From positions 1 through 34,502 of the forward strand of contig JAADJD010000006.1 of NCBI GenBank assembly GCA_013150955.1: a stretch of 34,502 nucleotides of DNA. Direction: 5' to 3'. Shown in pieces: positions 471 through 33,499 of this stretch. The stretch's first letter is position 1. Each line of letters starts with the position of its first letter. Both the position numbers and the translations under genes were made by a program. Origin of the DNA: Calditrichota bacterium (GTDB lineage Bacteria; Calditrichota; Calditrichia; RBG-13-44-9; J042). The notes under the pieces are model-generated. The model did not search any database, had not been told where the DNA came from, and saw only the letters and a program-made list of their open reading frames with translations.

Positions 471-698
471 TCCAGATTGTGCAATAGCCTACGAATGACA
501 CGAATGAATTCGAAAAATATCAAAAAAGTTAACCCAGATTATGCAATAAACCGCGAATCACGCGAATGAAACCAAAAAATATCTTCAAAATCGCGAATAA
601 ACCATGGAACACATTTTCATCCAGACACAATCCAATGTATTTTATTGGTTTTATTGGTGTTAATTCGTGTCATTCGTAGGTGAATGCATAATCTGGGT
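471..698 (+). repeat. Dispersed TWA element, block 1 (one fragment plus one full copy)
   Basis: A decayed end (471-528) is followed by a full 167-bp copy at 532-698. The copy begins ACCCAGATTATGC and ends GCATAATCTGGGT. Its outer ~37 bases are imperfect inverted repeats of one another: CCGCGAATCACGCGAAT on the left and the complement of CCTACGAATGACACGAAT on the right. Flanks are TTA on the left and TAA on the right, so the target duplication is not exact here. The last base of the element is the first base, on the plus strand, of the rrf2-like gene's stop codon. Confidence 0.85.
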
Positions 699-1701: not shown

Positions 1702-1982
1702 AACCCAAATTATGCTTTAGACCACGAATTGCACGAATTAACACAAATAAAAACAATAAAATCCATTGTTTTAGTTCTGTATGAAAATTCGCTTCGAGGT
1801 TTATTCGTGATTTTATCCCAGATTATGCAATAGCCTGCGAATTACACGAATTAACGCCAATAAAAATAATAAAATGCATTTGATTCTATCTGGATGAAAA
1901 AATTTCCCCAGATATATTAGCTATCTTGTTGATTTTTTTCGAATTCATTCGCGTGATTCGCGGTTTAATGCATTATCTGGCT
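1702..1982 (-). repeat. Dispersed TWA element, block 2 (nested fragment plus full copy)
   Basis: An element end at 1702-1815 is interrupted by a full 167-bp copy at 1816-1982 in the opposite orientation to block 1. That is, the CCTGCGAATTACACGAAT end is on the left and the CATTCGCGTGATTCGCGG end on the right. The left flank is TTA and the right flank a decayed version. The block ends about 50 bp before the start codon at 2036, so it must contribute to, or lie just upstream of, that gene's promoter. Confidence 0.8.
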
Positions 1983-5560: not shown

Positions 5561-5745
5561 TCCCAAATAATGCATTAAACCCAAATTATGCAATAAACCG
5601 CGAATCACGCGAATGAAACCAAAAAATATCTACAAAATCGCGAATAAGCCCTGGAACACATTTTGATCCAGACACAATCCAATGTATTTTATTTGTTTTA
5701 TTTGTGTTCATTCGTGTGATTCGTAGGCTAATGCATAATCTGGGA
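5561..5745 (+). repeat. Dispersed TWA element, block 3
   Basis: A short end fragment (5561-5578) is followed by a full 167-bp copy, 5579-5745, in the same orientation as block 1 (ACCCAAATTATGC to GCATAATCTGGGA). Flanks are TAA and TGA, one mismatch. The gap 5453-5818 otherwise shows no gene and no convincing terminator. Confidence 0.85.
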
Positions 5746-9700: not shown

Positions 9701-9932
9701 ACCCAAATTAAGCTTTAAACCAAATAATGCATGAAACCACGAAGCCCGCGAATGAATTAGGAAAAAATCAACAAAATAGCGAATATATCCGGGAAACCAT
9801 TTTCATCCAGATAGAGTCAAGTGCATTTTATTATTTTTATTGGCGTTAATTCGTGTAATTCGTAGGCTAATGCATAAGCAGGGTTTATTCGTGGTAGTTC
9901 GCGTCATTCGCAGGCAAGTGCACAATCTGGGC
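9701..9932 (+). repeat. Dispersed TWA element, block 5 (nested)
   Basis: An outer copy starts ACCCAAATTAAGC at 9701 and ends CACAATCTGGGC at 9932. About 17 bases in, it is interrupted by an inner copy running from roughly 9719 to 9887, ending GCATAAGCAGGGT and followed by TTA. It lies between the convergent toxin gene and beta-barrel gene. The last base of the element (9932) is also the first plus-strand base of the barrel gene's TAG stop codon, as at the rrf2-like gene. Confidence 0.75.
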
Positions 9933-15815: not shown

Positions 15816-15848
15816 GTGAAACCATCAAAATGAGACGAACAAAAATAA

Positions 15849-16172
15849 TCCCAGATTATGCATGAGAACCACAAATGACACGAATGAACACCAAAAAATA
15901 ATAAGATGCACTTGATTCGATCTGGATGAAAATGGTTTCCTGTATATATTCGCTATTTTGTTGATTTTTTTCGAATTCATTCGCGTGATTCGTTTTAACG
16001 CTTTATTGGGGATAATGCATGAAACCGCGAGTCGCGCAAATGGAACCAAAACATATCCACAAAATCGCGAATAAACCTCGAAACAATTTTTCATCCTGAT
16101 ATAATCCAGTAGAATTTATTATTTTTGTTCCTGTTCTTTTGTGTCATTCATGGTTTGATGTATATTCCGGGA
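15849..16172. repeat. Dispersed TWA element, block 6 (two head-to-head copies)
   Basis: A full 164-bp copy at 15849-16012 (CCCAGATTATGCATG on the left; CATTCGCGTGATTCG then TTGGGGA on the right) is flanked by TAA at 15846-15848 and TAA at 16013-16015, an exact 3-bp duplication. A second copy of opposite orientation follows directly (16016-16172) and lacks its outermost bases. The gap 15816-16202 holds little else apart from the archease ribosome-binding site. Confidence 0.82.
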
Positions 16173-19351: not shown

Positions 19352-19574
19352 CGATAAACCCGGATGATGCGATCGCCTACAGATGACACGAATGAACACG
19401 AATAAATAAACCCAGATTATGCATTAGAACCGCGAATCACTCGAATGAATTCGAATCATATCAACAAAATAGCGAATATATCCCGGGAAACATTTCCATC
19501 CAGATAGAATCAAGTGCATCATATTATTATTGGTACTCATTCGTGTAATTCGTAGGCTAATGCATTATTTGGGT
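19352..19574 (+). repeat. Dispersed TWA element, block 7
   Basis: A fragment (19352-19406) is followed by a full 165-bp copy at 19410-19574 (ACCCAGATTATGC to GCATTATTTGGGT). The copy is flanked by TAA at 19407-19409 and TAA at 19575-19577, an exact 3-bp duplication. The rest of the gap 19311-19876 is the AT-rich control region of the xre-speD operon. Confidence 0.85.
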
Positions 19575-20970: not shown

Positions 20971-21343
20971 AACCCAGATCATGCAATAGCCTACGAATTA
21001 CACGAATTAACCCAGATTATGAATTAGACCACGAATTGCACGAATGAACACGAATATTAACCCAGCTTATCCATTAGCCTACGAATTACACGAATTAACG
21101 CCAATAAAAATAATAAAATGCACTTGATTCTATCTGGATGAAAATTTGTTTCGGGGTATACTCGCGATTTTGTGGATATGGTTTGGTTTCATTCGCGTGA
21201 TTCGCGGTTTAATGCATTATTTGGGTTTATCGCGATCTTGTGGATATTTTGAATGAAATCGTAGGATTCCCGGTTTCATACATCATTTGGGATTACGGGT
21301 ATCCATTCGCGTACATTGGTAATCTAATGAAAAATTTTGGTTT
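20971..21343. repeat. Dispersed TWA element, block 8 (three copies nested inside one another)
   Basis: An outer copy starts at 20971. At its TTA (21007-21009) a second copy (21010-21292) is inserted, with the TTA repeated at 21293-21295. Inside the second copy, at TTA 21057-21059, a third full 167-bp copy (21060-21226) is inserted, with TTA repeated at 21227-21229. The remainder of the outer copy runs to about 21343. Both inner copies have exact 3-bp duplications. The block separates the convergent speD and sensor-kinase genes; no other feature is seen from 20913 to 21459. Confidence 0.85.
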
Positions 21344-25499: not shown

Positions 25500-25823
25500 A
25501 TTGTGCTAGAGCCTACGAATTACACAAAATAACACAAATAAAAAACCAGTTTATGCATTCGCCTACGAATTACACGAATTAGTCCCAATAAATATAATAA
25601 AATGCACTGGATTCTATCTGGATGAAAAACGTTCTCCCGGATATATTCGCGATTTTGTTGATTTTTTTCGAATTCATTCGCATGATTCGTGGATTACCAC
25701 AATTTGGGATAAAATCCATTCAATGATATCTGGATGAAAAATGTGTTCCGGGGTATATTCACGATTTTGTTTATATTTTTCGGATTAATTCGCCCGATTC
25801 GCGGTTTAAGCAGTATTTAGGTT
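25500..25823. repeat. Dispersed TWA element, block 9
   Basis: An end fragment (about 25500-25540) is followed by a full 165-bp copy at about 25545-25709 (CCAGTTTATGCATTCGCC on the left; CATGATTCGTGG and TTTGGGA on the right) and then a second, shortened copy end to 25823 (CGCCCGATTCGCGG, TTTAGGT). The right flank is TAA and the left AAA. The gap 25263-25866 contains nothing else recognisable. Confidence 0.78.
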
Positions 25824-28946: not shown

Positions 28947-29130
28947 TGCACTTCCTCCCATTCAGCCGAATATTTAATATAATTGGATGAAACCGTTTGT
29001 GCAACCGCTGGACGGCCAATTTTCGGTTGGTTTGTGTGAGTTGAATTTTAAATTTTAACATAAGGGAGGAGCGGTCGATCAGACCCTCAAAACGGTCAGC
29101 GACGCATCCGTATCAATCAAACATTTTATG

Positions 29131-29447
29131 AACCGAAATAATGCATTAAACCGCGAATCACACGAATGAAACCAAAAAATATCTACAAAATCGCGAATAA
29201 ACCCAAATAATACACAAAAACCACGAATCAGGCGAATGAATCCAATGAATATCAACAAAATATCGATTAAATCCAGGAACACAGTTTTTATCCAAATAAT
29301 CAAACGGATTTTATTATTTTTGTTCGCGTTCATTCGTGTCATTCGTAGGCTAATGCATAATCTGGGATAAGCCCCGAAACGAATTTTCATCCAGATATTA
29401 TCCAATGGATTTTATTTGTGTGAGTTCGTGTCATTCGTAGTCTAATG
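29131..29447 (+). repeat. Dispersed TWA element, block 10 (copy inserted inside another copy)
   Basis: An outer copy begins at 29131. At its internal GCGAATAA it is interrupted by a full 167-bp inner copy (29201-29367, ACCCAAATAATAC to GCATAATCTGGGA), with TAA at 29198-29200 repeated at 29368-29370. The outer copy then resumes (GCCCCGAAACGAATTTTCAT) and ends near 29447. Removing the inner copy and one TAA restores the sequence seen in block 3 (GCGAATAAGCCC). Confidence 0.85.
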
Positions 29448-32387: not shown

Positions 32388-32500
32388 GAGCAGACAAGTT
32401 TGGTTTTTGTTTCTTTTTTGTATTTGGAAAAATTGAAATAGTCTTGACTAAATTTTTTGTAATGCATAATCCGTTGTGCTAATAAAAAAGGAGATTGGCA

Positions 32501-32562
32501 ATGGCATTATATTTCTTTATAATTGAGTTGATAAAGTTAACAAAAACAAGGAATAATGCCAT
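32501..32562 (+). promoter_or_regulatory. Inverted repeat covering both possible transposase starts
   Basis: ATGGCATTAT (32501-32510) is perfectly complementary to ATAATGCCAT (32553-32562). The left arm is the ATG at 32501 and the right arm enters the ATG at 32561, so pairing in the mRNA would bury one or both initiation codons. This parallels the hairpin at 169-212 in front of the other transposase. Confidence 0.45.
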
Positions 32563-33467
32563 GCACAATCTCCGTGATAGGTTTGATAAAAATTCAGCCA
32601 TTGTCAAACGATCTTTGAAGAATCTTCTTGATCCGGACGGAAATTTACCTAGACGAGGCAAAAAACCGAAATTCTCCGATGTGGAAGCCATTGCCCTGAG
32701 TCTGCTTTCTGAGAGTCTCATGATTGACAGCGAAAACTATTTATTCAAGTTGTTGCATAATAATTACAAAGAGCAATTTCCGAACTTGATTGAACGCTCC
32801 CGCTTCAATCGCCGAAGAAAAACAACTTCACCATTTAATCGAGAAATTTCGCATCCGTATAGTTGAACAACTTGTGGAACATGAAAACTTTTTTCTCATT
32901 GATTCCATGCTTCTGCCGATCGTGCGATTCTCTCGGGCAAAAAGAGCGCGAATCTGTAGAGAAGACTATCAAAGCGCACCCAGTTTCGGCTATTGTGCGG
33001 CTCACGATCAACCCTACTTTGGCTATAAACTTCATGGGGTTGCTACTGTAAATGGCGTTATGACTCATTTTGATCTCTCTAAAGCCCATGTCCATGATAT
33101 TGAATATCTTAAAGATATTCGCCATTATTACCCGAATTGTCCTCTATTGGGAGATCGAGCTTACCTGAGCAATCCCTTGCAACTGGAATTATTTGAAGAG
33201 AATCGCCTGTTCCTGATTACTCCCATGCGAATGAATCAGAAAAACTACCGAAAACAACCGGCTGTGTTTCGCTATCTGAGGAGAAGAATCGAAACGATTT
33301 TCTCCCAATTGTGTGACCAGTTTCAGATTCAAAAGAACTATGCTAAGACGTTCCGTGGCTTAGCCATCCGCATTTTAACAAAAATTACCGCATTCACTTT
33401 GCTAAAATATTTGAACAAATATGAATTCGCTAATGAATTAAACCATATCAAACATGTTCTGATTTAA
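32501..33467 (+). pseudogene. IS982-family transposase, interrupted by a +1 frameshift
   Basis: The first frame gives NLRDRFDKNSAIVKRSLKNL ... LLSESLMIDSENYLFKLL and IERSRFNRRRK. The second continues QLHHLIEKFRIRIVEQLVEH, FFLIDSMLLPIVRFSRAKRA, YFGYKLHGV, CPLLGDRAYLS and RRRIETIFSQLCDQFQIQKN. DDE residues are visible as D in LIDSM, D in LLGDRAY and E in RRIETIF. The frames join at a run of five A (32818-32822): removing one A restores RRRKQLHHL. IS982 transposases are normally a single frame, so this is a one-base insertion or a sequencing indel. Starts ATG 32501 (GGAG upstream) and ATG 32561 (AAGGA upstream) are both possible. Confidence 0.85.
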
Positions 33468-33499
33468 TTAGCACAACGGGAAAAAATCATCAATAACTC

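Follow-up and report, generated by a model that had tools for sequence, protein, structure and literature searches.

The window, by which we mean the whole stretch of 34,502 nucleotides analysed here, is one complete contig of a Calditrichota genome of 4.07 Mb in 66 contigs. The host probably falls in the class Calditrichia or its GTDB counterpart, since a genome of its class (G016) matches a contig of Calditrichia bacterium RS_13_18 with DNA identity over 3,026 bp. Between positions 20971 and 21343 it contains a nest of copies of a short repeat of the MITE kind, in which two shells are well supported and a third is half-supported. The features of the nest are as follows.

20972..21009, + strand: left end of the outermost (third) copy, consensus about 1-38, left flank TCA
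21007..21009, no strand: left TTA flank of the middle copy
21010..21056, + strand: left part of the middle copy, consensus 1-47
21057..21059, no strand: left target-site copy (TTA) of the inner copy
21060..21226, + strand: inner copy, full length, 167 bp, ends ACCCAG...TTGGGT
21227..21229, no strand: right target-site copy (TTA) of the inner copy
21230..21292, + strand: right part of the middle copy, consensus about 102-167
21293..21295, no strand: right TTA flank of the middle copy
21304..21341, + strand: candidate right end of the outermost copy, weak, at chance level

A preliminary description of this DNA had placed three copies inside one another, the innermost at 21060-21226 and the middle one at 21010-21292, each with TTA on both sides. 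These two shells and their flanks are as it had stated. The left end of the third copy stands as well, with 90% identity to the inner copy over 40 bp, but its right end does not: when 21304-21341 was aligned locally with the right end of the consensus, its top score was equalled by 76 of 2000 shuffles and by 153 of 2000 random segments of the window, and the outermost flanks mismatch, with TCA before the copy and TTG after it. Nor do the two halves of the middle copy read continuously once the inner copy is removed, as had been claimed. The joined form measures 113 bp; relative to the 167-bp consensus some 51 bp (about 48-98) are absent, and the loss falls precisely where the inner copy was inserted. 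This break means that the middle copy offers no clean empty site, and that the focal nest by itself falls short of the direct evidence for transposition that had been seen in it. It is possible, though less likely than not, that the host was no short 113-bp form receiving a single insertion, but that two copies inserted into one host copy (at about 48 and about 99) and that recombination then deleted the middle of the host together with one insert. The missing stretch spans two sites used elsewhere, positions 48 and 99 each being occupied in 4 of 21 strong nests, and an intact 113-bp form was not seen in the 39% of the genome searched for it; on the other hand, a single insertion is the simpler account of identical TTA on each side, and a host copy that carried an internal deletion is just as possible.

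Copies of the repeat have a modal length of 167 bp, most of them falling between 155 and 185 bp, and contain no transposase. Their terminal inverted repeats are imperfect, the left one reading W-CCCAGATTATGCATTAG and the right one, read inward, W-CCCAAATAATGCATTAAA; as aligned, the ends are WCCCAGATTATGCATTAG on the left and ACCCAAATAATGCATTA on the right, again read inward, with mean consensus frequencies of 0.90 and 0.89, respectively. Next to the ends lie subterminal tandem motifs, ACGAATTACACGAATTAACAC, in which ACGAAT is near-invariant in the alignment and several spacer positions are variable, a pattern that would fit protein-binding sites. The element thus combines small size (below about 600 bp) and non-coding content with terminal inverted repeats, a target-site duplication and empty sites, as expected of a MITE.

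Several further copies, most of them full length, are present in the same window:

532..698, - strand: full-length copy
1816..1982, + strand: full-length copy
5579..5745, - strand: full-length copy
9718..9884, - strand: full-length copy, target-site duplication TAA
15849..16012, + strand: full-length copy, target-site duplication TAA; in the same-genus relative the orthologous genes are separated by 151 bp, against 432 bp here
19410..19574, - strand: full-length copy, target-site duplication TTA
25544..25709, + strand: copy within a cluster
29201..29367, - strand: full-length copy, cleanly nested in another copy, target-site duplication TAA

The last of these is a cleaner nest than the focal one, since its flanks rejoin without a gap onto the family profile and so give a clean internal empty site. 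Two mechanically called open reading frames, 15825-16094 (89 aa) and 29079-29405 (108 aa), overlap copies of the MITE and are likely spurious gene calls.

The copies served to build a family profile, and a scan of 1.98 Mb (49% of the genome) with it returned 663 matches, 312 of them full length, covering 4.0% of bases; this sample partly favoured stretches that bear hits, and in a subset dominated by whole long contigs the coverage was 3.7%, which corresponds to about 580 full-length copies. Extrapolation to the whole genome yields about 580-640 full-length copies and 1,280-1,360 matches. Only 15 of 305 copy centres lie in long open frames, although such frames make up 84% of the DNA. Median identity is 87% to the consensus and 80% between pairs, with just 14 pairs above 97%; by this divergence the copies are mostly old, and there is therefore little sign of recent activity.

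Flanks were scored for 305 copies in which they were usable, with the expectation taken from the composition of both sides. TNA stands on both sides in 248 of the 305, and in 165 of these 248 the two 3-mers are identical where 94.6 would be expected (p=1.4e-19). The duplicated 3-mers are TTA, TAA, TGA and TCA, a target slightly broader than the TTA/TAA proposed before. Identity of the flanks is maximal at 3 bp (165 copies), and only 6 copies still match when 4-mers are compared, which sets the duplication at 3 bp. Tabulation of the flanking 3-mers thus upholds the duplication postulated in the preliminary description, with an identity far above composition and no longer repeat behind it.

A second line of evidence comes from copies that have landed in other copies. 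Junctions inside another copy were found for 74 of the 305. In the empty-site test, flanks were joined after removal of one target-site copy, and the joint was counted as gapless if it showed no gap within 12 nt: nests with matching duplications rejoin gaplessly in 24 of 50 cases with one target-site copy removed, in 1 of 53 with both kept, and in 1 of 45 with none kept. The host positions of the 21 strong nests range from 48 to 153. Together with the excess of identical flanking 3-mers, these clean internal empty sites support transposition as a unit, with ends W-CCCAG...GGG-W in place of the ACCC...GGG(T/A) first suggested. Nesting affects 24% of the copies, much as the fraction of non-coding DNA made up by the element (about 25%, from 4.0% of bases and the approximately 16% that lies outside long open frames) would predict, so that self-targeting need not be invoked: random landing of a dense element in a small non-coding fraction would yield the Russian doll. 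The many self-nests amount to base-exact empty sites within one genome, and offer a cheap proof of transposition that dispenses with a series of strains.

Comparison with relatives points in the same direction at coarser resolution. An 18-bp end of the element occurs 115 times in this genome and not at all in 39 other genomes of the phylum. In the same-genus relative (G001) there is one variant, 310 bp in all, which has ends of this type and a TAA duplication but differs in its interior (G001:C15:2441-2747). After duplicate rows were dropped, 20 distinct orthologous gaps with MITEs remained. These exceed their counterparts in G001 by about 180 bp (median), the corresponding figure for 18 gaps without copies being -12 bp, and in example alignments the copies are missing from G001. 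The empty sites in relatives called for by the preliminary description are therefore seen in part, as shorter gene gaps in G001 and, in base-exact form, as self-nests; a search with joined flanks in about 0.3 Mb of G001 found no base-exact empty site. Such sites are unattainable there because intergenic DNA is too diverged (genes are about 75% identical), and the focal site itself is non-syntenic, its left side lying on contig C3 of G001 and its right side on C29. Given the single variant copy in this relative, the burst of insertions is datable and its effect on gene spacing measurable.

Folded as RNA, the consensus forms a single long hairpin (MFE -55.3 kcal/mol, z=-6.2), which could suggest a functional structured RNA or regulatory element that was spread and kept by selection, with the TNA flanks as part of its motif. 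Hairpin folding is, however, expected of any MITE. Moreover, the middle base of TNA agrees across the two sides above composition (165/248), as it would not in a fixed motif, insertions cleanly interrupt other copies, the element is nearly absent from the same-genus relative where orthologous gaps are shorter, and an Rfam search of the window found tRNAs only. We consider a selected RNA very unlikely. The same palindromic, full-length hairpin, with high copy number and intergenic location, recalls extragenic palindromes of the REP/BIME kind, which a RAYT (Y1 tyrosine) transposase spreads, and two Y1_Tnp genes are present in the genome. Each of these RAYT-like genes (L323, G000:C35; L324, G000:C13) lies within a separate dense array of GC-rich hairpin repeats that do not resemble the MITE, and near one of them there is a MITE fragment only. 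Y1 single-strand transposition (IS200/IS605, RAYT) makes no duplication of the 3-bp TNA type found here, and REP palindromes measure 20-40 bp, against 167 bp. In its length and its duplication the repeat departs from the REP/BIME type, a short palindrome that sits beside a RAYT gene and makes no target-site duplication, and both Y1 loci carry other repeats; that origin appears extremely unlikely.

The repeat is best read, with a probability of roughly 0.85, as a MITE that inserts as a unit at TNA and is moved in trans by a DDE transposase, most likely of the IS1031 type of the IS5 family. The present data demonstrate that it inserts at 5'-TNA-3', mostly in non-coding DNA, and leaves a 3-bp direct duplication; hundreds of such insertions have taken place in this lineage, a number of them into existing copies of the element. 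The DDE transposase acting in trans would make a cut at TNA that is staggered by 3 nt. It is most likely an IS5-family enzyme of IS1031 type, would recognise the ends and perhaps the ACGAAT motifs, and may since have been lost or simply not have been found. Elements of the IS1031 group use a TNA target and generate a 3-bp repeat (PMC12016507), as does the MITE; they encode a transposase and have the TIR GAACCTGTCTAGTATCT (PMC12016507). The likeness extends to target and duplication and not to the ends, as the TIR described for the group (GAACCTGTCTAG..., PMC12016507) is unlike the MITE ends, and so is that of the IS5-family gene in this genome (NF033581, L064). The IS1031-type assignment is a lead taken from the duplication only, because none of the transposases checked has matching ends. 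Duplications of 3 bp at TNA or TWA are also made by the related eukaryotic PIF/Harbinger (PHIS) transposons (PMC4482050), which share this feature with the MITE.

Candidates for the mobilising enzyme were sought in the genome itself. The MITE ends are absent from the transposase genes examined (IS982, TIR CCCGTTGTGCTAAT; IS5_4, TIR GAAACCTTTGA; IS1380; IS1634), no partner bearing them was seen among the DDE_Tnp_1, DDE_Tnp_4 and Y1 genes found, and 49% of the genome contained no element of 0.4-6 kb with paired MITE ends and a matching target-site duplication. At L064 (G000:C4, about position 985 in the locus) the IS5-family element starts where a MITE copy stops, at consensus position 41, which suggests that the IS landed in the MITE. 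An IS982-family element (about 32470-33479) lies in the window together with the MITE, and both have CCC in their ends, so it might be asked whether this element mobilises the repeat. This is very unlikely: its TIR (CCCGTTGTGCTAAT) departs from CCCAGATTATGCATTAG after CCC, its ends lack matching TNA flanks, and only one further copy, a partial one, exists in the genome. The transposase of the window's IS982-family element (32470-33479, NF033520) is split over two frames (32495-32866 and 32790-33467), and in the partial copy (C4, L074) it forms one continuous frame.

The repeat is a new high-copy MITE family of a known kind, and it behaves as MITEs ordinarily do. ERIC elements of the Enterobacteriaceae are likewise high-copy, intergenic and palindromic MITEs, of about 127 bp as against 167 bp here; to our knowledge their sequence is unrelated to that of the present family, which differs from them in its 3-bp TNA duplication. 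The copy number reported here, in a little-studied phylum, approaches the maximum that a recent review gives for bacterial MITEs, the up to 711 copies of ERIC in Photorhabdus luminescens (PMC10969869). The RUP, BOX and SPRITE elements of Streptococcus pneumoniae form hairpins as well, and are clustered intergenic MITEs that nest in one another (PMC3049150). RUP, with 110 copies against about 640 full-length ones here, has TIRs resembling those of IS630-Spn1, its candidate partner (PMC3049150), whereas none was found for the MITE here. By description, the family can further be likened to the Chunjie MITE of Geobacter uraniireducens, of 178-235 bp, which has conserved TIRs and direct repeats, is mostly intergenic, and is known from 38 full and 57 partial copies (PMC10969869).

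What a specialist might not expect is that a near match to part of the element is common to several phyla. The exact 27-mer CCACGAATTACACGAATTAACACGAAT, which closely resembles the left subterminal sequence, was found in at least 115 contigs that span about twelve phyla (L167-L246), the taxa being Bacteroidota, Cloacimonadota, Marinimicrobia, Aminicenantes, Chloroflexi, Planctomycetota, Opitutaceae, Calditrichia, Acidobacteria, Gallionellaceae, Treponema, Latescibacterota and Armatimonadota; many of these contigs are metagenome bins, so that some placements are perhaps binning errors, and Flavobacterium isolates are included. Neither the 27-mer nor its sister motifs given below were found in the literature searched. 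It often appears single-armed, and sometimes as a short hairpin flanked by a T-run and an A-run. Direct duplications at the repeats of other phyla gave no signal in 40 two-armed cases, and 77 had no second arm; because two thirds are single-armed and the rest give no such signal, these repeats were not merged with the MITE. A looser end pattern applied to 41 genomes carrying the 27-mer gave one match (Cloacimonadota), with no recognised paired end. That the subterminal motif of the MITE belongs to an undescribed class of intergenic repeats common across bacteria is a doubtful proposal. The 27-mer may possibly be the recognition module of a widespread, uncharacterised mobile system, joined here to TNA-inserting ends. 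In some loci sister motifs, CCACAGATTACACAGATTGACACAGAT and CACAGAGGCACAGAGACACAGAG among them, lie near the 27-mer.
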